Source: Exiguobacterium sp. s124 (GTDB lineage Bacteria; Bacillota; Bacilli; Exiguobacteriales; Exiguobacteriaceae). From it: DNA of 64,000 nucleotides. A program made the position numbers and the translations under genes. The stretch lies in contig NZ_JACSKH010000001.1 in assembly GCF_018617485.1 (NCBI RefSeq), positions 1,364,001 through 1,428,000 on the forward strand. The letters run 5' to 3'. Positions 16,778 to 27,011 of this stretch are shown in pieces (position 1 is the stretch's first letter; every line of letters starts with the position of its first letter). The notes beneath the pieces were generated by a model, which made no database searches, was not told the origin of the DNA, and was given only the letters and a program-made list of their open reading frames with translations.

Positions 16778-17698
16778 TTAGGCAATATGATCACCACCCG
16801 TCAATGTAATGAAGAGATCTTCTAGCGTCTGCACTCGGCGCTCGAGTCCGAAAACGTCAACATCACGTTCCATTAAGTAGCGATTCAACTTCGCTGTCTC
16901 CTCGACGTTCATCGAGATTCGAATCGTCCGTTCATCGATCACGTCCGCCTGATCAATGCCCTCGTAACCTTGAACGATTGGTAACACTTCAAAGCTGTTG
17001 GTGACATGCAAATCGACCGTCGAAGCAAGTTCCTCAATTAAGGCCTGAACTGTGCCTACTTTGACAATCTTCCCTCTCGACATGATGGCGACACGATCCG
17101 CCAACAATTCAATCTCCGCTAAGATGTGGCTCGAGACGAGAACACTGAGTCCAGTCTCTTCAACGAGTCGACGAATAAATAGTCGTAAATCCCGAATCCC
17201 CATCGGATCAAGACCATTCGTCGGCTCATCTAAAATAAGGACACGTGGATTGTTCAATAACGCCTGAGCAATCCCGAGCCGCTGACGCATCCCGAGCGAG
17301 TACGTCTTCACTTTGTCATCGATTCGAGCGGTCAAATCGACGAGGTCAATCACTTCTTGAATCCTTTTGTCATCCACACCAGGCAACATGCGCGCGAACG
17401 CTTCTAAATTCTCACGTCCGGATAAGAATTTATACAGTTCTGGATTCTCGACGATGGCTCCAATTTGATTCATCGCTTGAACGAATTGCTTGTCAACTCG
17501 ATAGCCACAAATGGAAACATTTCCTTTCGTCGGTTTAATCAAACCAACAATCATCCGAATCGTCGTCGTCTTCCCGGCCCCGTTCGGTCCTAAAAAACCG
17601 AATACTTCTCCTGGCTGGACTTCTAGCGAAATATTATCGATGATTGTCTTCTTTCCAATCACTTTTGTCAGTTGATGTAACTTTAACGTCGGTTCCAT
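16778..17698 (-). CDS. ABC transporter ATP-binding protein
   Basis: A 306-residue ATPase partner of the permease just downstream. Walker A is GPNGAGKTT (37-45), the signature is YSLGMRQRLGIAQAL near 138, Walker B is VLILDEPTNGLDP, and the H-loop is in VSSHILAEIE. The C-terminal 90 residues are the extension of BcrA/LanF-like exporters. Such pairs export peptides, antibiotics or lipids; no sensor kinase or regulator is adjacent to suggest which. AAGAGGTGAG precedes the ATG. It is the first gene of a two-gene operon divergent from the SGNH hydrolase gene. Confidence 0.9.
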   Translation of the reverse strand: MEPTLKLHQLTKVIGKKTIIDNISLEVQPGEVFGFLGPNGAGKTTTIRMIVGLIKPTKGNVSICGYRVDKQFVQAMNQIGAIVENPELYKFLSGRENLEAFARMLPGVDDKRIQEVIDLVDLTARIDDKVKTYSLGMRQRLGIAQALLNNPRVLILDEPTNGLDPMGIRDLRLFIRRLVEETGLSVLVSSHILAEIELLADRVAIMSRGKIVKVGTVQALIEELASTVDLHVTNSFEVLPIVQGYEGIDQADVIDERTIRISMNVEETAKLNRYLMERDVDVFGLERRVQTLEDLFITLTGGDHIA

Positions 17699-17816
17699 TG
17701 TCTCACCTCTTTTCTTATTCTATCGGACAAAATCGAATCTGTCCTATTCGAACATTCACATAGGGCACATCCATACATTTTTGATATGATGTTTGTATAG
17801 AAAGCGAGGTCAGCCC

Positions 17817-18566
17817 ATGAAACAGTCGAAATGGTATGCATTTTTAACTGGCGCCGTTCTCTTGACGGGAATCGCGTTATACGGTCTTTGGATTGGTTAT
17901 CAAGATATCGTCAATCCGCCAGAACGAACACTGTCCGTCTCTGAAGACGAGCGTCCTGAACCAGAAGGAGATATCTACGTCGCGCTTGGCGATTCGTTGA
18001 CTCGCGGAGTCGGGTCGACATCAGGCGCAGGATATGTACAACCTGTCAGCGAAGGTTTGGAAGATGAATCGCTCCGTACCCAAAACTTAGCCGTGTCTGG
18101 GGCACGAACTGAAGATTTACTTGCTCAACTTGAGCAACCTGAAGTGCGTCGTACGATTGAGAGCGCCCGATATATCACACTAACAATCGGCGGAAACGAT
18201 TTGTTCAACCGTGGGGAAAACGTCGATAATTTCGAGTCTGTCGATATTCAACAAGTCGTTACGGATGCGAAGACAAATCTCGAAACGATTTTTTCTGAAA
18301 TCCGTGCGCTCAACGACTCGGCGACCATCGTCTATATCGGTCTTTACAATCCGTTCCAAAATGATGAGAACGGGCAAGCATTCAATCAACTCATCCTCGA
18401 CTGGAACGCATCCGCGAAACAGTTGGCGAACGCGCAGAACATTGATGTAATCGATCCATTCGCTTATATCACTGACTTATCACGTGATCTCGCGACCGAT
18501 CAATTTCATCCGAGTGACCGTACGTATGAAAAATTCGCGAATGATGTACTCTTCGTTCTCGAATAA
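17817..18566 (+). CDS. SGNH/GDSL hydrolase, membrane-anchored (YpmR-like)
   Basis: A 249-residue lipase/esterase-type protein. One hydrophobic helix (residues 7-28) anchors or exports it. Block I is GDSLT with Ser60, block III is GGND (125-128), and block V is DQFHPS with Asp228 and His231, a full SGNH triad. The size and layout match Bacillus subtilis YpmR, an exported SGNH protein of unknown substrate. ATG at 17817 follows GCGAGGT; an upstream in-frame ATG has no site. It is monocistronic and ends in a shared terminator. Confidence 0.87.
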   Translation: MKQSKWYAFLTGAVLLTGIALYGLWIGYQDIVNPPERTLSVSEDERPEPEGDIYVALGDSLTRGVGSTSGAGYVQPVSEGLEDESLRTQNLAVSGARTEDLLAQLEQPEVRRTIESARYITLTIGGNDLFNRGENVDNFESVDIQQVVTDAKTNLETIFSEIRALNDSATIVYIGLYNPFQNDENGQAFNQLILDWNASAKQLANAQNIDVIDPFAYITDLSRDLATDQFHPSDRTYEKFANDVLFVLE

Positions 18567-18571
18567 TCAAA

Positions 18572-18605
18572 ATCCTCGTCAACATAAGCTGACGAGGATG
18601 TTTTT
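18572..18605. terminator. Terminator between SGNH hydrolase and GNAT genes
   Basis: ATCCTCGTCA/TGACGAGGAT, ten pairs with an eight-base loop, is followed by G and five T on the plus strand. It abuts the stop of the convergent GNAT gene. Confidence 0.87.
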
Positions 18606-19275
18606 ATTTTTCGTATCGAACGACCCACTGCTCTCCTTGTTTCATGAGACCAGTCCCTCGCCAACCTGTCTGTAGCAACTCAACTTGTTTCACCCGATCT
18701 TCCATCGGCACATCCATCGCTTCTGAAGTAGGTTGCCATGTGCGATGTAACTCCTTATAAAAAATATAACGAAGTTTTCCACCATACTTTTCTTTCAATG
18801 CCCCGATTCGGAGTCCGAGCGTGAACTTATCTTTCATGCTCGGAATATTGAACGGTGCGACGGTCGCGCAGACGACATCGAATCGGTCGTCGGTCTCGCA
18901 TTGTGCCATCAATAGTTTACCTAGGTGTGTCTGTAACCCGTATCCCCTGAAATCTGGATGGACGTTTGTCACTTCTTGATAGAGAACACGCTCAAGCGAA
19001 GCTTCAGGCCAACCGATATCTCGGCCTAAATGTTCGTCGTCAATTGGTGGGATGAGCATGGCTCTGAATGCAATGAGACGTCCTTCATATATTGCTCCAA
19101 CTAACGTTTGATCCGTCAACAGTTTCGTGAACTCTTCGATGGATAACGATTGATAGTGTTCTGGTTCAGCCAATGCCTGAATCACTGTTTCCTGAAGAGA
19201 CATTAGTTCAGGTAAATCTGACAAGCTCAGAACGTGCACGTGAAGCGAAAGATCTTTCACGTCACCTTGCCACAT
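18604..19275 (-). CDS. GNAT acyltransferase, candidate succinyl-CoA:amino acid N-succinyltransferase
   Basis: A 223-residue GNAT protein with the acyl-CoA-binding motif A in VHPDFRGYGLQTHLGKLL and a preceding LVGAIYEGRLIAFRAM strand pair. ATG at 19275 is chosen because GGAG lies nine bases upstream; a TTG at 19290 is in frame too. The gene overlaps the end of the racemase gene by 14 bases, so the two are coupled. In Geobacillus kaustophilus a GNAT beside an N-succinylamino acid racemase succinylates D-amino acids; the same role is inferred here from context, not from specificity residues. Confidence 0.78.
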   Translation of the reverse strand: MWQGDVKDLSLHVHVLSLSDLPELMSLQETVIQALAEPEHYQSLSIEEFTKLLTDQTLVGAIYEGRLIAFRAMLIPPIDDEHLGRDIGWPEASLERVLYQEVTNVHPDFRGYGLQTHLGKLLMAQCETDDRFDVVCATVAPFNIPSMKDKFTLGLRIGALKEKYGGKLRYIFYKELHRTWQPTSEAMDVPMEDRVKQVELLQTGWRGTGLMKQGEQWVVRYEK

Positions 19276-20392
19276 GCGACTCTTCTCCAATCACATATGA
19301 ATCAATCGTCAGTTCACGTAGCACGTCTTCATCGACGTCAATTCCGAGACCAGGTTGATCATTTAATGAGATAATCGGTAAATCATATGATAAGTTTCCG
19401 ACATCTTTCCCGAAACGGAGAGGCCCTGTCAGTTCGACCGTTTTTACGATGTGACTAGAGAAAGCGACATGGAAACCTGCACTTGATGCAATCGAAGATT
19501 CGACCATTGACCCGATCTGACATTCGATTCCCGACATTTCTGCCATATGCACCAACTTTTTCGCCGGATAAATGCCGCCACACTTCATCAATTTAATATT
19601 TGCTTTATGTGCCGCCTGCATCATCGTCAAGCGTCTCATATCGTGAATGTCTTTCAAACCTTCATCCATCATGAGCGGAACCGCAATTTTTTGCTTCACT
19701 TCTAGCATGCCTTCAAAGTCATCTGCTCGAACCGGTTGTTCCACCCAATCGATTCCATACGGCTCGAGCAGACGCATCGCCTGAACGGTGTTGGCCGCGT
19801 TGCCCCATCCTTGATTGACATCGACTCGAATCGGAACATCCGGTCCTACCGCTTCTCTTACGGCTTTGACACGTGCCACGTCCGTTTGCACATCGACCCC
19901 AACTTTCATCTTCACGGCCGTGTAGCCTTGAATGATTTGTTCGAGTGCCTCTTGTGCCATATGACTTGGTTCCCCGATACTTAAGACGTGTGTGACCGGG
20001 AAAGACTCATGGTACCGACCACCAATCCATTCATAGATCGGTTGATTTAATTTTTTCCCGATCAAGTCATGACAAGCGATATCGAGTGCCGCTTTTGCTG
20101 CCGGGACCCCGCGAATTGCACGATCCATCTCATCATGAATGCGCTCTAAGTGCAACGGATTTTTTCCGATTAATAGCGGTGCTAACAAATGACGGAGTAC
20201 ACTGATCGTACTCTCAGCCGACTCACCCGTCACATGCTCGTCCGCCACCGCTTCCCCATAACCGACAAGTCCACAAGTCGTGGTCATCTTGACAATGACA
20301 GACGGCATATCATCGTAACGGTGATAACTGACGATAAACGGAACTTTTAACGGGAAACGAACTGAGAAAATTTCAATCTTTTTTATATTCAT
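19262..20392 (-). CDS. Enolase-superfamily racemase/epimerase (MLE subgroup; N-succinylamino acid racemase candidate)
   Basis: A 376-residue muconate-lactonizing-subgroup enzyme. The general base pair is KMK (Lys161, Lys163), metal ligands are Asp191 (RVDVNQGW), Glu218 (DWVEQPV) and Asp243 (MMDEGLKD), and the opposite base is Lys267 in NIKLMKCGGI. Two lysines on opposite faces mean 1,1-proton transfer, that is racemisation or epimerisation. The choices are dipeptide epimerase (YkfB-like) or N-succinylamino acid racemase; the flanking GNAT and nearby M20 hydrolase favour the latter, and a divergent N-succinyl-Arg/Lys racemase is known in Bacillus cereus. DEGLKD replaces the DESV of typical Ala-Glu epimerases. 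ATG at 20392 follows AAAGGAGTGAGG. Confidence 0.85.
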   Translation of the reverse strand: MNIKKIEIFSVRFPLKVPFIVSYHRYDDMPSVIVKMTTTCGLVGYGEAVADEHVTGESAESTISVLRHLLAPLLIGKNPLHLERIHDEMDRAIRGVPAAKAALDIACHDLIGKKLNQPIYEWIGGRYHESFPVTHVLSIGEPSHMAQEALEQIIQGYTAVKMKVGVDVQTDVARVKAVREAVGPDVPIRVDVNQGWGNAANTVQAMRLLEPYGIDWVEQPVRADDFEGMLEVKQKIAVPLMMDEGLKDIHDMRRLTMMQAAHKANIKLMKCGGIYPAKKLVHMAEMSGIECQIGSMVESSIASSAGFHVAFSSHIVKTVELTGPLRFGKDVGNLSYDLPIISLNDQPGLGIDVDEDVLRELTIDSYVIGEESHVAR

Positions 20393-20425
20393 TTTCCTCA
20401 CTCCTTTACTTCGATTGCGCTTTCC

Positions 20426-20453
20426 TCTATATTGTCGTTATATAGTCGTTAAA
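20426..20453 (-). promoter_or_regulatory. Racemase promoter with tandem-repeat operator
   Basis: Minus-strand TTTAAC and TATAGA are 16 bases apart. The operator at 20431-20453 (ATTGTCGTTA, then TATAGTCGTTAAA) is two direct 11-bp copies of TWGTCGTTAWW covering the -35 and spacer. A near-identical element lies before nhaC. Confidence 0.6.
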
Positions 20454-20472
20454 TTGCAAGGGGGATTTTCAG

Positions 20473-21672
20473 ATGTCCATCCATATCGCTGTCGTCGGTT
20501 CGCCAGCTTTCATTCAACAAATAATTAAAGATTCTTCTTTACCCGATGTCCGGATTGAAGGGTTTCCTTATGATGACCCACGCGAGGCGGAAGACATCGC
20601 TGATCAACTCGTGTTTTTTGACGGAGCTTTCTTCTCCGGTTCATTTCCGTATACGTACGCGACCGAGAAGGCGAACATTCCATATGCTCATCACGTTGTT
20701 CAAGATGATGTCGTGTTATTGACTTCACTCTTATATATGACGTTAACACAACACGTGCAATTAGAAGACATCTCGATCGACCTCGTTGACATGTCCCGAT
20801 TGGAATCGATATTCGCATCATTTCCAAATCATGTACCCTCATCACAAGTGAAGCTACTCCACCCCCATATGAATCTTGAAGACTTGATAGCCTTTCATGA
20901 ACAGCTTCAAGAAAGCGGGACGACACGATTTGCTTTGACGAGTGTGGAGCAAGTCCACCGTCGATTGATCAGTAGCGGTTATGCTAGTCAACTCATGATT
21001 GAACCAAAGGAGAGAATTCTCCATCATTTCAATGATTTTCTACAACAGATTCGATTGAAAAAGTCAGACCAATCACAATTCGCTGTCCTCTTCTACTCGA
21101 ATGCGAATGAAGACACGCTTCAACATGTGACAAATCAACATTTGTTCGACGGCAAATTGATGGAATCTGACGAAAAAGGTATCGTCATTTTATCGAATAA
21201 AGGAAAAATCGAGTCCGCCATCTCCAGTGGAACCATCCTATTGGAAAATTCGTCTGCGTACGTTGGTATCGGATATGGATCAGATTATAAACGCGCACTC
21301 GAACATGCTCGTTTAGCCTTTCATGCAACGGGCGATGCCGCTATACGAATCGTCGACAATTCGAAGCAATTAACGTTCTCAAATCAACCGTCACCGATTC
21401 ATTTCCGCGTCACGCAAACACGTGTCTATAACATGATGAAACAAACCGGCATGAGTCCGACCAATATCGAAAAGATCATTCACTTCTCAGCTAATCAACT
21501 CGAATTCACAGCGAAAGAGTTGACCGATTATTTGCAGGTGACACGACGTACGACAGAGCGACTGATTAAAAAGTTAGTCGAAGCGAAACTCATCCATGCG
21601 ATTGGTGAAGAGATGAGCTACAGTCAGGGTCGACCTCGCAACGTCTATAAATTTCAATTCCCGGTCGAATGA
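20473..21672 (+). CDS. Transcriptional regulator with C-terminal winged helix, divergent from the racemase gene
   Basis: A 399-residue protein. Residues about 1-190 resemble a ligand-binding region without a known signature. Residues about 205-300 read like a degenerate GGDEF/PucR-type fold (YVGIGYGSDYKRALEHARLAF near the end). Residues about 345-395 form a winged helix-turn-helix (FTAKELTDYLQVTRRTTERL, then a wing with SQGRPRNVYKF). It has no membrane segment. It is transcribed away from the racemase-GNAT operon across 80 bases that contain the tandem-repeat operator, and the same operator recurs before nhaC, so it is the obvious candidate to bind both. Its ligand is unknown. AAGGGGGA precedes the ATG. 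Confidence 0.72.
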   Translation: MSIHIAVVGSPAFIQQIIKDSSLPDVRIEGFPYDDPREAEDIADQLVFFDGAFFSGSFPYTYATEKANIPYAHHVVQDDVVLLTSLLYMTLTQHVQLEDISIDLVDMSRLESIFASFPNHVPSSQVKLLHPHMNLEDLIAFHEQLQESGTTRFALTSVEQVHRRLISSGYASQLMIEPKERILHHFNDFLQQIRLKKSDQSQFAVLFYSNANEDTLQHVTNQHLFDGKLMESDEKGIVILSNKGKIESAISSGTILLENSSAYVGIGYGSDYKRALEHARLAFHATGDAAIRIVDNSKQLTFSNQPSPIHFRVTQTRVYNMMKQTGMSPTNIEKIIHFSANQLEFTAKELTDYLQVTRRTTERLIKKLVEAKLIHAIGEEMSYSQGRPRNVYKFQFPVE

Positions 21673-21690
21673 CGACCGGGAATTCTTGTT
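21656..21690. terminator. Terminator between regulator and nhaC genes
   Basis: AATTCCCGGTCG and CGACCGGGAATT form a perfect 12-bp stem around a five-base loop that includes the regulator stop; CTTGTTTT follows on the plus strand. Confidence 0.85.
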
Positions 21691-23118
21691 TTACTGTGCC
21701 ACCTGTTCAGCGACAGGTTCTTCTTGTTGAATGACCGCCATGCGTTCAATCGTATATCCAGTAAAGGCATACAGAATCGAAATAACCGGTACGATGAAGT
21801 TTAAGACGGCGTATGGCGCATATTCGAACGCCCCGACACCGAGCGTACCGAGAATGAATACCCCGCACGTGTTCCAAGGAATAAATACCGACGTCAATGT
21901 TCCACCGTCTTCGAGTGCACGGGATAGATTCTTCGATTGCAGCCCCATTTTCTCATAAGCCCCGGCAAACATGCGTGACGGGACAACAATTGAGATGTAC
22001 TGCTCCGAGCAAGTCGCATTTGTCGCAATCCCTGCTAAAATCGTTGAAGCAATCAACGAACCTGCTGTTTTCGCTAACTTCAGAATTTGATTCATGATTG
22101 ATTGAAGCATTCCTGAATATTCTAATATTCCTCCGAACGTCATCGCAACGATCGTCATCGATACCGTATACATCATCGCATCAAGACCGCCTCGGCTGAA
22201 GAGGTTATCAACCAATTCATTTCCCGTATCAATGACATAGCCACTTTGGAGAGCGCCTACGCTGTCCGCGAGCGTACCCCCTTGGATGAATACTTGAGCC
22301 AAGAAGCCAAGTGCGATTCCGACGACGAGTGCAGGAATCGCCGGCACCTTCTTCGCGACGAGTAAAATGACCGCGAGCGGTACGACGAGTAACCATGGAG
22401 AGATGACAAAGCTGTCTTCAAGAATACTGAGTGTCTGTGTGATTTCTGACGAGTCCGTCGTCGAATCCGCAAAGCGTCTACCGAGCCATGCGTATACACC
22501 TAACGCGATGATGAGACCCGGTATCGTCGTATACAACATGTGTCGGATATGTACGAATAGATTCGTATGTGTCAGTCCTGCTGCTAAGTTTGTCGTATCT
22601 GACAAAGGTGACATCTTATCCCCGAAATAAGCACCCGAGATGACGGCCCCCGCAACCATCGGTGCTGGTATCCCCATACTGAGCCCGATGCCCATCCCCG
22701 CTACACCGATTGTTCCCATTGTCGACCACGAGCTCCCAATCGAGAGTGCAACGACTGCACAGATGAGACAAATCGTTAACAGGAAGTATGCGGGCGAGAT
22801 AATCTTCAGTCCGAAATAGATCATCGTCGCGACAATACCTCCACCAATCCAAGCCCCGATTGTCAACCCGACGAGAATGATGATGACGACTGCCGGCAAG
22901 GCGAGCCGAATTCCTTTGTACATCATCTCTTCAATCTCTTTCCACTTAAACCCGTGACGCCATGCGACGATTGAAGCGACTGCCGTCCCAACGATGAGCG
23001 GGATGTGTGGACCTTGTCCAAGTTTGACGATTGAGATGAGCATGACGACGATCATCACGCTGAGTGGCAACAGTGCCCATCCTAGTTTCATGTCTTTTTT
23101 GTTCCCCGTTGTTTCCAT
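21691..23118 (-). CDS. NhaC family Na+/H+ antiporter
   Basis: A 475-residue secondary transporter with about 11 to 12 hydrophobic segments. NhaC-type motifs are visible: GSSWSTMGTIGVAGMGIG, GAYFGDKMSPLSDTTNLAAG and, late, ATNATCSEQYISIVVPSRMF and PWNTCGVF. The family exchanges sodium for protons; MleN and related members couple this to organic anions such as malate and lactate, so uptake of an amino acid derivative is conceivable here. AAGGGGAGG precedes the ATG. Its promoter region carries the same tandem operator as the racemase operon and a perfect cre site, which ties it to the cluster. Confidence 0.88.
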   Translation of the reverse strand: METTGNKKDMKLGWALLPLSVMIVVMLISIVKLGQGPHIPLIVGTAVASIVAWRHGFKWKEIEEMMYKGIRLALPAVVIIILVGLTIGAWIGGGIVATMIYFGLKIISPAYFLLTICLICAVVALSIGSSWSTMGTIGVAGMGIGLSMGIPAPMVAGAVISGAYFGDKMSPLSDTTNLAAGLTHTNLFVHIRHMLYTTIPGLIIALGVYAWLGRRFADSTTDSSEITQTLSILEDSFVISPWLLVVPLAVILLVAKKVPAIPALVVGIALGFLAQVFIQGGTLADSVGALQSGYVIDTGNELVDNLFSRGGLDAMMYTVSMTIVAMTFGGILEYSGMLQSIMNQILKLAKTAGSLIASTILAGIATNATCSEQYISIVVPSRMFAGAYEKMGLQSKNLSRALEDGGTLTSVFIPWNTCGVFILGTLGVGAFEYAPYAVLNFIVPVISILYAFTGYTIERMAVIQQEEPVAEQVAQ

Positions 23119-23150
23119 CTAGCTTCCTCCCCTTGTAGCGAAAATTCAGA

Positions 23151-23173
23151 ATTGTCGTTATATTGTCGCTAAT
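23151..23173 (-). promoter_or_regulatory. Tandem-repeat operator upstream of nhaC
   Basis: ATTGTCGTTA followed by TATTGTCGCTAAT matches the element at 20431-20453 in 20 of 23 positions, again as two direct copies 11 bp apart. It is 33 bases before the nhaC start and is probably a target of the regulator at 20473. Confidence 0.6.
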
Positions 23174-23180
23174 AACGTTA

Positions 23181-23194
23181 TGATAGCGCTTACA
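23181..23194 (-). promoter_or_regulatory. cre (CcpA) site upstream of nhaC
   Basis: Read on the minus strand, TGTAAGCGCTATCA fits the consensus TGWAARCGYTWNCW at all 14 positions. It lies just upstream of the tandem operator in the nhaC promoter region. Confidence 0.6.
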
Positions 23195-23209
23195 CTTATT
23201 TGATGCAAT

Positions 23210-23250
23210 AAAAAAATGAGTGGACAGACATCTGTCTATCCCACTCATCA
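23210..23250 (-). terminator. Terminator after the M20 hydrolase gene
   Basis: ATGAGTGG and CCACTCAT enclose a further partly paired GACAGA/TCTGTC core; six or more T follow on the minus strand. It separates the M20 transcript from the nhaC promoter. Confidence 0.8.
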
Positions 23251-23254
23251 TGAT

Positions 23255-24343
23255 TTATGTCGCTGCAATGCGGAGCGAATCCGCGAGCAAGAGTGCCCCG
23301 TCTTCCAAAGCATCACGGTCAAACGTCATATGCGGATGGTGGAGACCCGGACCTAAATCTGCCCCGATTCCAATCATCGTCGCATCAAGTGACGGTTTCT
23401 CGACGGTATAAAAATGAAAGTCATCGCTTCCTGACGTGACAATCCGTTCGACGAGAGCCGACTCACCAAATCGTTCCTCGATCGCTCGCTTGGCGATTTG
23501 GCTAGATTCTTCCCCGACGACGGCTCCCGGTGTGAAGTCTTGCCACTCCCATTCCAATTTCACGTGATGAAGTTGAGCGACATGGTGAAGCATATCCTCG
23601 ACACGATTTCGCAAAGCGAGCAATTCTTCGTTTTGTTGAGCACGAACGTCAATCGAGAACGTCGCATTCCCCGGAATGATGTTCATATTGTCACTCCCGG
23701 CATGGACTTTCGTCAACTTGACCGAATGCGGCTCAAACGGAGACAAGTAAATGCTTTTTAGCATGTGTTGAATCGTAAAGATGACGTCGAGTGCGTTCTG
23801 TCCTTGATGCGGTCTTGCACCGTGCGCATCATCACCGAGCACCTCTCCCTTTAAGAAAAAGGCAGCACCATGCTGAATCGCCGCGGCGTATTGGCCTTTC
23901 TTCAACTCTTCTTGTGGACGTAAATGAATGCCGAACAGTTGGGTGACGTCTTCTAACGCACCGCGTTCAATCATGGCGAGTGACCCGTTCCCTTGCTCTT
24001 CAGCAGGCTGGAAGATAAAGCGGATGCGTTTCTGTAGCGATTCGTCCTTCAGCTGTTCGAGGGCACCGAGCACCATGCTGATGTTCGCGTCGTGCCCACA
24101 CGAATGATTGGCACGGAACGTACCGTCCACTTGTTGCCATAACGCATCGATATCGGCTCGGACTGCAATCACGTCCTCCCCCGATCCAATCTCTGCAATC
24201 ACCCCGGTCACATCCTCAAACGTCCGATGTGGAATCGACCAGTCCGATAAGATGGATGCGATTGTTCGAGTCGTCTCGATTTCTTTCCAACTGATTTCCG
24301 GATGTGCATGAAAATGTTCAAACCACTTGAGTACGCTTGTCAT
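23255..24343 (-). CDS. M20 family metallo-amidohydrolase (N-acyl-L-amino acid hydrolase type)
   Basis: A 362-residue M20D-type hydrolase that would cleave N-acyl or N-succinyl amino acids. Metal-site motifs are CGHD (82-85), PAEE (113-116), the DDAHGARPHQG dimerisation-site histidines and HHPHMTFD near the C-terminus. ATG at 24343 follows GTGGAGG; upstream codons in frame lack a site. It lies 16 bases after a DoxX-like gene in the same orientation and upstream of nhaC. In the N-succinyl D-to-L pathway an M20 enzyme removes succinate from the L-isomer; that role is inferred from the neighbours. A hippurate/indole-acetyl-amino-acid hydrolase is the alternative. Confidence 0.85.
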   Translation of the reverse strand: MTSVLKWFEHFHAHPEISWKEIETTRTIASILSDWSIPHRTFEDVTGVIAEIGSGEDVIAVRADIDALWQQVDGTFRANHSCGHDANISMVLGALEQLKDESLQKRIRFIFQPAEEQGNGSLAMIERGALEDVTQLFGIHLRPQEELKKGQYAAAIQHGAAFFLKGEVLGDDAHGARPHQGQNALDVIFTIQHMLKSIYLSPFEPHSVKLTKVHAGSDNMNIIPGNATFSIDVRAQQNEELLALRNRVEDMLHHVAQLHHVKLEWEWQDFTPGAVVGEESSQIAKRAIEERFGESALVERIVTSGSDDFHFYTVEKPSLDATMIGIGADLGPGLHHPHMTFDRDALEDGALLLADSLRIAAT

Positions 24344-24359
24344 ATGTACCTCCACATCT

Positions 24360-24704
24360 TTATATTTTTTTGACACCTTTGATGAGGACCCACTGTAAAG
24401 GGAGTCGACTCCACGTGATCCATTTCGGGATGACTTTCCCGCCGATTCTAGATGGCTTCACGGCCATGTTGATATTTGCCGGGAAAACGGCGATAAAGAA
24501 TGCCGGCAACGTCCGTTTCACGAACGACGTTCCTTTGTTCAGTAAGAGCATCGCCCCGAAGACGACTTCTACGACTCCGCTCAGTTGCACCATCAACCGA
24601 CGAAACGGCCATGACTTCGGAATGATCGACATGAACGCCTTCTCTCTGACAAAATGTAATATTCCTGCCCCGAAGAGTAACACCCCATATAAATTACGTA
24701 CCAT
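24360..24704 (-). CDS. DoxX-like small membrane protein
   Basis: A 114-residue protein with about four hydrophobic segments and the DoxX-family arrangement (LYGVLLFGAGILHF near the start, VQLSGVVEVVFGAMLL in the middle). Members occur in respiratory or redox-stress complexes, but most have no known activity. AAAGGAGG precedes the ATG. It is directly downstream of the htrA terminator and 16 bases upstream of the M20 gene, with which it is probably co-transcribed. Confidence 0.7.
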   Translation of the reverse strand: MVRNLYGVLLFGAGILHFVREKAFMSIIPKSWPFRRLMVQLSGVVEVVFGAMLLLNKGTSFVKRTLPAFFIAVFPANINMAVKPSRIGGKVIPKWITWSRLPLQWVLIKGVKKI

Positions 24705-24733
24705 AACTCATCCTCCTTTTGTATAAGCATAGC

Positions 24734-24760
24734 AAAAAAGGCGGGCATATTGCCCACCTT
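24734..24760 (-). terminator. htrA terminator
   Basis: An eight-pair stem (GGCGGGCA/TGCCCACC, one G-U on the minus strand) with a three-base loop is followed by six T on the minus strand, directly past the htrA stop. Confidence 0.85.
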
Positions 24761-26026
24761 TTACAGTGCAGAACCGTTCGCGTTTTGAATCTCGACTTGA
24801 ACCGTCTCTGTTTTTCCGTCACGGACATATTCGATGTCGACCGTTCCATCTGTATCCCGGATCAATTCACTACGGAGATCGATGAACGAGCTGACTTCTT
24901 TGTCATTGATTTTCACGATGACGTCACGCGCTTCAAGACCCGCTTTCGCAGCTGAACTGTTTTGTTGGACTTCCACGATAATCGTTCCAGCCGTTACCGA
25001 TTCAGGCAGGTTGATTTGTTCCGTCAAGTAACCTGGAGGGAACTCTGACACATCACGTAGCGAGACGCCGAGCGAAGGATGGTTCACTTCTCCCGTTTGT
25101 TCGATTTGATTGATGAGTGGAAGGGCGATGTCGACTGGAATTGAGAATCCGACTCCCTCGACTTCTGCCGTTGCAATCTTCATCGAGTTGATTCCGATGA
25201 GTTGTCCTTCTTCATTGATTAATGCACCGCCCGAGTTACCTGGGTTGATGGCTGCATCCGTTTGAATGACCTCGGCGTTGAAGTCGGCTTGACCGTTCTC
25301 ATCCGTATCCACCGGTACGAGACGTGACGTCGATGAGACGACACCACGCGTCACCGAGTTCTCGAATTGTCCGAGCGGATTCCCGATCGCGATGACGGTT
25401 TGACCTGGTTTCAATTCGCTCGATTTTCCGATTGAGATGACAGCTGGTACTTTGTCAGCATCAACTTTTAAGACCGCCAAGTCATACGTTGCGTCACTTC
25501 CCATGAGCGTTGCTTCTGCTGTCGTTCCGTCATTAAACGTGACCGTCAGCTTGTCTGCCCCATTGACAACGTGATGGTTCGTTGCGATAAATGCCGAGTC
25601 ACCTTCTTTTTTGTAGATGACCCCTGAACCGACTCCAGCCTCGACCGCTTCACTCGAGAAGCCGGTTTGGGCGAAGTTGTTCACGGTCACGACGGCAGGT
25701 TGAGCAGTCGCGACGGCATTCGTGACTGAAGAATCGGACACGTTTGATGACGTTTGGACCGGAGTCCCTTGTGAGGTGACGTTCGTGTCACTCACACTCG
25801 TAGCGGGTTGGTCGATGAACGGGTAAGCGATTGCGCCCGTCAACAATGCCCCGATGACCCCACCGACAAGTCCTGGGAACATACGGCTAACGAATGAAGG
25901 TTTTGTCTGTGTTCGTACTTTTGCTTCTTCTCGGTTAGATGAACCGAGTTCTGTATCTAACCAATCTTTTTGTTGCTCTGATTCATGTAATTGATCGCGT
26001 TCATTTGATTGATCGTGACGATCCAT
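24761..26026 (-). CDS. htrA: HtrA/DegP-type membrane-anchored serine protease
   Basis: A 421-residue protease: a charged cytoplasmic tail (1-47), one membrane helix (49-70), a Ser/Thr-rich linker, a trypsin-like domain and one PDZ domain (about 315-415). The triad is His151 or 152 (ATNHHVV), Asp182 (YDLAVLKVD) and Ser265 (GNSGGAL). It degrades or refolds damaged exported proteins at the outer membrane face. Bacillus has three paralogues (HtrA, HtrB, YyxA), usually under CssRS; no CssR site was recognised. GAGGAGATG precedes the ATG. The symbol marks the family, not the paralogue. Confidence 0.92.
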   Translation of the reverse strand: MDRHDQSNERDQLHESEQQKDWLDTELGSSNREEAKVRTQTKPSFVSRMFPGLVGGVIGALLTGAIAYPFIDQPATSVSDTNVTSQGTPVQTSSNVSDSSVTNAVATAQPAVVTVNNFAQTGFSSEAVEAGVGSGVIYKKEGDSAFIATNHHVVNGADKLTVTFNDGTTAEATLMGSDATYDLAVLKVDADKVPAVISIGKSSELKPGQTVIAIGNPLGQFENSVTRGVVSSTSRLVPVDTDENGQADFNAEVIQTDAAINPGNSGGALINEEGQLIGINSMKIATAEVEGVGFSIPVDIALPLINQIEQTGEVNHPSLGVSLRDVSEFPPGYLTEQINLPESVTAGTIIVEVQQNSSAAKAGLEARDVIVKINDKEVSSFIDLRSELIRDTDGTVDIEYVRDGKTETVQVEIQNANGSAL

Positions 26027-26137
26027 AATGATTCATCTCCTCTGTGTTATCTTCTACCCTTACTATAACGAAGAGGAACACTCATTTATAAAATGATAAA
26101 TGAATTACAAGATTCTTCACATTTTGCGTCATTTCAT

Positions 26138-26956
26138 TCAGACAATCACATTTCTTAGCGTACCCAGTCCTTCAATCGTCACTTCGACGGTGTCTCCCGT
26201 TTGAAGATACGTCGGTGGCGTCATCCCGTGACCGACTCCAGCCGGCGTACCTGTCGCGATAATATCACCTGCTTCGAGCGTCATGCCTTTCGATAACGTA
26301 CGAATAAGCTCATCAATCGGGCGAATCATATCAGCCGTCGTCCCATCTTGGCGCGTCTCACCGTTCACATCCGTTCTGATTCGGAGTGGAAACTGTAGCT
26401 CGTCCGGTGTCACGATGAATGGTCCCATCGGACAGAACGTATCGAGCGACTTCCCGCGGAAAAATTGAACATGTTCTTTTTGCACGTCTCGTGCCGTCAC
26501 GTCATTTAGAATCGTGTATCCAAAAATGTGTTCCTCGACCGATTCGATGTCTCGTCCCGACTTACCGATGATGACGGCGAGTTCGCCTTCGTAGTCTAAT
26601 TTGTCCGTCAAATCCGGATGCCGCTCAATGACCGCTTCCGGACCGACCACCGAAGTCGGCGCTTTCGTGAAAATGACAAGTTTCCCAGCTCCTGCTGTAT
26701 CCATCTCTTTCACGTGTTCTTCGTAGTTCTTCCCGATACAAATCACGTTTTTCAAAGGACGATACGGGGCGAGCAATTTCACATCCGTCAATCGGTATGA
26801 CGGCGCCACGTCCAAATCAATATCTGGTTCGAACTCACGGGCGATCACTTCTAATAAATTTGTCGTATGTACTTGATTGCTAACATCGAAGACAAAATCG
26901 CCCTCGACAATCCCCACTCGTTGTTCTTCCTGCATGTAAAAACTACACCATTTCAT
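26138..26956 (-). CDS. Fumarylacetoacetate hydrolase (FAH) family protein
   Basis: A 272-residue FAH-fold enzyme. Motifs are VICIGKNYEEHVKE near residue 70, the metal-binding acids in LDYEGELAVIIGK near 128, and DIIATGTPAGVGHG late. Members include oxaloacetate decarboxylases/acylpyruvases, 2-hydroxyhepta-2,4-diene-1,7-dioate isomerases and ureidoglycolate lyases, which cannot be told apart by eye. ATG at 26956 follows AAAAGGGGGA. It lies alone between htrA and nrdG; no aromatic catabolic genes accompany it, so an acylpyruvase housekeeping role is the simpler guess. Confidence 0.85.
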   Translation of the reverse strand: MKWCSFYMQEEQRVGIVEGDFVFDVSNQVHTTNLLEVIAREFEPDIDLDVAPSYRLTDVKLLAPYRPLKNVICIGKNYEEHVKEMDTAGAGKLVIFTKAPTSVVGPEAVIERHPDLTDKLDYEGELAVIIGKSGRDIESVEEHIFGYTILNDVTARDVQKEHVQFFRGKSLDTFCPMGPFIVTPDELQFPLRIRTDVNGETRQDGTTADMIRPIDELIRTLSKGMTLEAGDIIATGTPAGVGHGMTPPTYLQTGDTVEVTIEGLGTLRNVIV

Positions 26957-26983
26957 CAAAAATCCCCCTTTTCATCATTATAC

Positions 26984-27011
26984 AAAAAATCGAGACATGT
27001 CTGCCTCGATT
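26984..27011 (-). terminator. nrdDG terminator
   Basis: AATCGAG/CTCGATT around a ten-base loop is followed by at least four T on the minus strand. The stem reaches the nrdG stop codon. Confidence 0.78.

Follow-up and report, generated by a model that had tools for sequence, protein, structure and literature searches.

What does a compact cluster of five genes in Exiguobacterium sp. s124 accomplish, and what governs its expression? The cluster occupies positions 18604-24376 of the window, i.e., the whole analyzed stretch of 64,000 nt from the 2.82-Mb genome, whose numbering is used for all coordinates. A preliminary description had proposed that it converts D- to L-amino acids through N-succinyl forms, with a dedicated regulator and an antiporter. 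We found that four of the five genes, encoding a GNAT-like protein, an MLE-subgroup racemase, a winged-helix regulator and an NhaC-family carrier, are a conserved module in many Bacillales genera, with the gene of an M20 amidohydrolase as a looser fifth member. We add to the earlier account that the regulator is very probably tied to a conserved operator. On balance, we read the locus as a module that salvages cationic D-amino acids and is controlled by a repressor of its own; for this reading we infer the substrates, direction, succinyl donor, ligand and DNA binding. The genes are:

18604..19290, minus strand: GNAT-like N-acyltransferase gene, proposed succinyl-CoA:D-amino acid N-succinyltransferase (open frame, weak PF00583 in relatives, structural model)
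19262..20392, minus strand: MLE-subgroup racemase, proposed N-succinyl-Arg/Lys racemase (PF02746/PF13378, match to 2p88, clade, ELT motif)
20473..21672, plus strand: regulator of 399 aa with a C-terminal winged helix, divergent from the racemase gene
21691..23118, minus strand: NhaC-family carrier, proposed importer of cationic D-amino acids (TIGR00931)
23255..24376 (ATG at 24343), minus strand: M20 amidohydrolase, proposed N-succinyl-L-amino acid desuccinylase (TIGR01891)

All five open frames were recovered where the preliminary description had placed them, and its end point, 24343, is the ATG of the M20 gene. The GNAT-like gene overlaps the racemase gene by 29 bp, or by 14 bp if an inner ATG is the start; the racemase starts with the ATG at 20392, and a longer GTG frame reaches 20401. 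Among named relatives, Exiguobacterium aestuarii was the nearest found, with a regulator 79% identical.

The preliminary description had put forward co-occurrence of these genes beyond this locus as a test, and they do co-occur widely. We compared 80 named loci selected by their regulator (the best 80 of 184 relatives) and found the racemase in 77, the GNAT-like gene in 76, nhaC in 68 and the M20 gene in 46. The racemase and regulator genes are divergent in all 77 loci that have both, as had been described for the window, and the GNAT-like gene adjoins the racemase gene in 76 of the 80. All five genes are present in 40 loci, 28 of them outside Exiguobacterium; genera with relatives include Psychrobacillus, Chryseomicrobium, Sporosarcina, Rossellomorea, Neobacillus, Cytobacillus, Siminovitchia and Heyndrickxia. 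A second set, selected by the racemase, pools 40 loci (38 genomes) hand-chosen from 73 genomes outside Exiguobacterium. Its nearer 20 loci (L069-L088) possess GNAT in 19, NhaC in 14, the regulator in 12 and M20 in 11 cases, against 0, 0, 7 and 12, respectively, in the distant 20 (L089-L108). Clustering of neighbors in 107 loci outside Exiguobacterium, some of which occur in both selected sets, returned the racemase 104 times, the regulator 86, GNAT 82, NhaC 70 and M20 55 times, followed by the next family with 21. Within the genus, the cluster is kept in 18 of 18 other genomes, with NhaC missing in one (L027), but we gave this no weight in arguing for a module, since synteny there extends to the flanking genes. 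In 19 genomes of the sister genus we detected no regulator, and no racemase at E 1e-90. Our literature search, outside which most subscription papers lay, returned nothing on the module, the regulator or the operator.

Some loci show other arrangements. In three Lysinibacillus loci (L135, L174 and L177) the regulator is kept, with NhaC in two of them, and the racemase and GNAT-like genes are not nearby; by eye, these loci instead encode an AlaX-like editing protein and a CaiB-like CoA transferase. In Heyndrickxia coagulans 36D1, a transposase-like open reading frame, also recognized by eye, lies between the racemase and GNAT-like genes (L183:6313-7608).

The spacer between the racemase and regulator genes (33 to 284 bp) holds an almost invariant tandem repeat, GTCGYTA-N4-GTCGYTA, with the consensus TGTCGTTAAATAGTCGTTAAA. 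A matrix of 33 bits, built from 83 sites, was used to score it. The control elements of the window, including two copies of this repeat, are:

20405..20433, plus strand: predicted regulator promoter TTTACT-17-TATATT (best-scoring promoter, same placing in relatives)
20434..20451, plus strand: operator copy 1, GTCGTTATATAGTCGTTA, two GTCGTTA 11 bp apart (34.3 bits)
21656..21684, no strand assigned: terminator-like hairpin at the end of the regulator gene (terminator scan)
23154..23171, plus strand: operator copy 2, GTCGTTATATTGTCGCTA, before nhaC (28.9 bits)
23180..23208, minus strand: predicted nhaC promoter TTGCAT-17-TATCAT (best-scoring promoter)
23181..23194, minus strand: cre-like CcpA box TGTAAGCGCTATCA over the nhaC -10 element
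23222..23241, minus strand: terminator-like hairpin after the M20 gene and before the nhaC promoter (z -4.2)

A relaxed form of the operator pattern occurs in 98 of 107 spacers; counting distinct spacers, it is found in 83 of 92, compared with 0.1 expected from dinucleotide shuffles. Seven of the nine non-matching spacers are off by a single letter, one (L035) has one half-site, and in the last (L087) the site lies before the carrier gene. When one hand-chosen locus was taken from each of 19 lineages and Neobacillus was dropped for its off-pattern site, mean identity across the remaining 18 was 85% for the operator (a value inflated by the pattern itself), 68% for the preceding 40 bases, which contain the regulator promoter, and 56% for the following 20 bases. 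Upstream of nhaC, 79 of 87 distinct stretches from loci with the regulator score above all 900 shuffles; the eight misses include L026, L111 and L138, which do have the site and were missed as an over-long open reading frame had set the tested stretch. At least four loci (L078, L080, L084 and L180) have no operator before nhaC. In E. qingdaonense (L027/L112), nhaC was lost along with its operator, i.e., the second copy, and the other four genes were kept. In genome G181 the M20 gene is located elsewhere (L217:3573-4724), with a perfect operator 18 bp upstream of it.

In the s124 genome, twelve other places come within two mismatches of a consensus pattern, one of the twelve within a single mismatch, compared with 16 for the reversed control; the six of these twelve that were scored reach at most 5.2 bits, far below both operator copies. 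We further classified 38 genomes by regulator: an orthologue scoring above 400 bits is encoded in 21, six have no orthologue but paralogues of 266 bits or less, and the remaining 11 have neither. The strict operator pattern is found in 17 of the 21 genomes with an orthologue and in none of the 17 without (Fisher 2e-7, for genomes that are related). The four orthologue genomes missing the strict pattern are G393, G235, G304 and G344, and the loci of the first three carry variant sites. These comparisons make it highly likely that the regulator acts at the tandem repeat (predicted binding).

The operator also keeps a regular position relative to the promoters. The gap between the end of the -10 element and the operator downstream of it is 0-1 nt for the predicted regulator promoter (86 of 90 distinct spacers) and 5-8 nt for the predicted nhaC promoter (70 of 77 distinct stretches). 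A general promoter scan ran at chance level (10 found vs. 9.7 expected) and listed the regulator promoter and not the nhaC one. The predicted promoters place the operator over the transcription start of both the regulator and nhaC genes, where a repressor site would lie, which makes a repressor the likely role of the regulator. As for CcpA, an exact cre box occurs near nhaC in 28 of 78 distinct stretches vs. 0.02 expected in shuffles, and one with at most one mismatch in 50 of 78 vs. 0.84 expected. Another terminator-like hairpin, working both ways, is seen at 18572-18599, between a GDSL lipase gene and the GNAT-like gene.

Which reaction the module serves depends largely on the racemase. The window enzyme exceeds the cut-offs of both MLE-subgroup Pfam models (PF02746 and PF13378), and the catalytic residues listed in the preliminary description are present: counted from the ATG at 20392, Lys161/Lys163, Asp191-Glu218-Asp243 and Lys267 align with those of 1jpm and 2p88, Lys267 being the first Lys of IKLMK (the alignment column labeled K265 shows the second). 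Its top PDB match is 2p88 (E 1e-158; 227 of 363 aligned positions identical, 63%), followed by the dipeptide epimerases 3jva and 1jpm, while OSBS-type N-acylamino acid racemases do no better than about E 1e-26. A tree of 64 rows places the window enzyme, 39 GNAT-linked racemases, 2p88 and a single enzyme lacking a GNAT gene (L087) in one clade with support of 100/99; 20 of the 21 GNAT-less racemases fall outside it, and both 1jpm and 3jva are excluded from this fully supported branch. The DxD motif of dipeptide epimerases holds the amino group of the dipeptide. At its position the epimerases read DFD (1jpm) and DLD (3jva), whereas the window enzyme, 2p88 and the other 40 clade members have ELT. 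By sequence, the window racemase belongs with the 2p88 family and not with the dipeptide epimerases, and the earlier view of it as an N-succinyl-type rather than a dipeptide-only enzyme gains from the absence of the dipeptide-binding motif. We take 2p88 (also 2p8b/2p8c) to be the N-succinyl-Arg(/Lys) racemase of Bacillus cereus ATCC 14579, locus BC0371; Song et al. reportedly described a B. cereus N-succinyl-Arg/Lys racemase in 2007. A review (PMC4372640) lists an MLE-family enzyme of B. cereus ATCC 14579 as a predicted N-succinyl arginine racemase, citing Song.

The two partner enzymes are less evenly characterized. The GNAT-like protein gave no Pfam, NCBIfam or PDB match at the limits used, PF00583 reaching only E 0.14 and 12.9 bits (cut-off 20.7). 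Weak matches to PF00583 appear in 6 of 19 relatives (best E 0.0014), and the helix/strand order of an AlphaFold2 model (mean predicted local distance difference test score 93.0) would fit the GNAT fold; the earlier GNAT label is based on the weak matches in relatives and on this model, and falls below cut-off for the window protein itself. The M20 and NhaC labels were borne out. The M20 protein exceeds the cut-offs of PF01546 and TIGR01891 (269 vs. 153.75 bits), and DapE and ArgE models score far below their own cut-offs on it. Overlapping its start is an open reading frame of 114 aa (24360-24704), membrane protein-like, conserved in the genus and with no Pfam or NCBIfam match.

The carrier passes TIGR00931 (447 bits, cut-off 370) and has no match in PDB. 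Eight other racemase loci, of which five include the regulator, encode YfcC-type carriers, annotated as 'putative basic amino acid antiporter'; the two that were scanned score 361 and 370 bits, below the cut-off of 500. The cargo is more likely cationic (Lys, Arg or Orn) than anionic, because the racemase groups with 2p88 and the carriers resemble ArcD and YfcC. The anionic substrate suggested in the preliminary description accordingly moves to the rank of a rival. Arginase-family genes are found at two places in the genome, through which freed L-Arg could be used, though they are not specific evidence.

Taken together, these features suggest the following scheme. D-Lys, D-Arg or a related amino acid would enter through the NhaC-type carrier and be N-succinylated by the GNAT-like enzyme; the racemase would interconvert the N-succinyl-D and N-succinyl-L forms, and the M20 enzyme would release the L-amino acid, making the flow one-way. 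Lys/Arg as substrates are the more probable choice, judging from the racemase clade and the carrier names, and we lean toward the D-to-L direction as well. The regulator, probably as a tandem pair, would sit on GTCGYTA-N4-GTCGYTA, whose 11-bp period is one helical turn, and would cover the start of its own promoter and that of nhaC. The spacer between the racemase and regulator genes, where one copy of this site lies, is short and must drive the racemase and GNAT-like genes as well. A ligand bound at the front part of the regulator would relieve repression, and CcpA would add carbon catabolite repression at nhaC. The gene set, synteny, racemase clade, operator, promoter geometry and cre box in this scheme rest on computation. 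The pathway of Geobacillus kaustophilus, on which the preliminary description had modeled the locus, holds in outline, with the same three enzyme kinds; the locus departs from it in that the racemase is nearest to 2p88 rather than to the OSBS type and M20 is the least constant member.

A number of observations weigh against reading the locus as a repressor-controlled module for cationic D-amino acids. The M20 gene is missing near 34 of the 80 regulator-selected loci, and in the window it is probably not under the operator, because M20 transcription ends at a terminator ahead of the nhaC promoter. No clear racemase promoter was found, and a weak candidate in the window (TTGCAA-17-GACAAT) would straddle the operator. 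All counts cover related genomes and hence are not independent. The bare number of repeats is not above that of the control: across the 38 genomes the strict pattern gives 27 matches in 17 genomes and the reversed control 21 in 18, the latter divided between 9 of the 21 genomes with an orthologue and 9 of the 17 without. What sets the operator apart is placing, not count, as by our own reading 24 of the 27 occurrences lie beside regulator, racemase, carrier or M20 genes, with two in G131 that do not and one in G392 that is ambiguous. The two G131 sites, together with the sequence-based nature of the link between regulator and operator, would suit the view that the repeat belongs to another regulator and stands in the module by chance; we consider this very improbable, since none of the 17 genomes without an orthologue has the repeat and the sites follow the regulator gene or the carrier and M20 genes. 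The family support of the GNAT-like protein is weak, as described above, and the ArcD model NF052307 scores 370 bits on the carrier, below its cut-off of 650. Close kinship with LysW-type carriers, which we had expected beforehand, was dropped, as the relatives present in 11 of 72 lysine-riboswitch loci reach only 22-44 bits against the NhaC profile of the cluster; control by a riboswitch was dropped too, since positions 17000-27000 of the window gave no Rfam match at gathering score.

Replacements of the carrier also count against a cationic cargo. A TRAP fused permease adjoins the GNAT, racemase and M20 genes in L075, L081 and L085, where regulator and operator are lacking, and TRAP carriers usually carry anions; nhaC is replaced in L183 and L134 by what looks by eye like a peptide ABC operon of five genes, with one ATPase that passes a dipeptide ABC model and with the operator directly upstream. 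As the NhaC family, moreover, is known mostly for Na+/H+ antiporters, the same enzymes might serve another cargo: an already N-acylated or otherwise anionic amino acid, or small peptides, would be imported, and the racemase and M20 enzyme would act on the import. This seems unlikely to us, as the constant GNAT partner (76/80) makes sense if the cell itself must add the acyl group, and the YfcC-type carriers of eight related loci bear a basic amino acid antiporter annotation, even if the two scanned fell below cut-off. The three TRAP loci possibly house the same pathway with another carrier. Still less probable is a reversed flow, in which L-Lys or L-Arg would be succinylated to yield a D-amino acid for export, signaling or wall editing: the racemase works both ways, the M20 enzyme might take either stereoisomer and ArcD-like carriers can export, but the repressor geometry and the cre box at the carrier gene look like catabolic control. 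A racemase acting as a dipeptide epimerase in wall-peptide recycling would agree with the ranking of 3jva and 1jpm directly after 2p88 and with regulator paralogues adjoining peptide transporters. We dropped this identity as very improbable, since none of the enzymes compared (the window racemase, 2p88 and 39 GNAT-linked racemases) has DxD, and both epimerases branch outside the 2p88 clade.

The regulator on which the preferred repressor scheme centers carries the previously described winged helix at its C-terminus, at about residues 326-394, and its front three quarters gave no family above cut-off. We aligned 25 regulators, including 7 of the 19 from the genus and leaving out one with an in-frame stop (L020/L038) and that of L089 (whose first profile match reached just its end); 12 of the 25 invariant residues fall in the last 74 residues, i.e., the winged helix. 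At E up to 1, relatives match PrpR_N (8 of 25) and GGDEF_GdpP (4 of 25), all below cut-offs, and among ten members scanned the PrpR_N matches are N-terminal in three and in the C-terminal end in one, so that kinship with PrpR_N is a lead. PDB matches are weak and mostly to winged-helix proteins. One genome encodes 11 paralogues. Loci L220-L226 show paralogues near peptide ABC transporters, peptidases, a serine-hydrolase-like protein and more distant racemases (by eye), with similar GTCGTTA repeats. The wider family may run peptide or D-amino-acid salvage. The odds are slightly below even that this is an undescribed family of ligand-gated repressors whose DNA site is the tandem GTCGYTA repeat, whose ligand is a D-amino acid or the N-succinyl form of one, and which control the salvage of D-amino acids and peptides throughout Bacillales.

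To our knowledge, the 2p88 racemase family owes its name to substrate tests and had no pathway assigned to it, and the present analysis supplies it with a gene context, a carrier and a switch, and supplies an unannotated regulator with a sharp candidate DNA site. If the proposed scheme is true, it reveals a route by which many Bacillales could use cationic D-amino acids as nutrients, and it provides work on D/L amino acids with a sensor and a set of enzymes.

Compared with known systems, the carrier exceeds the TIGR00931 cut-off of NhaC antiporters and resembles the ArcD arginine-ornithine antiporter at 370 bits, but stops short of the ArcD cut-off, and its cargo is proposed from context. It shares a superfamily with LysW, a lysine carrier of the NhaC superfamily under a lysine riboswitch, according to a published account (PMC5584792). 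The regulator resembles PrpR_N and degenerate GGDEF regulators solely in below-cut-off matches, and differs from them in its C-terminal winged helix and direct-repeat site. In G. kaustophilus, N-succinyl D-to-L conversion is carried out by a GNAT succinyltransferase, an N-succinylamino acid racemase and an M20 desuccinylase; the same three enzyme kinds are encoded together here, whereas the Exiguobacterium locus has its own regulator and carrier and its racemase seems to be of another MLE-subgroup family, judged by PDB matches and not by the G. kaustophilus sequence. Two families with the N-succinylamino acid racemase reaction exist, as stated in a review (PMC4215206). Closest of all is the B. 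cereus 2p88 enzyme, with 63% identity, the same catalytic residues, ELT in place of DxD and a supported common clade, from which the window racemase is set apart by being seen with a GNAT-like partner, a carrier, a regulator and an operator.

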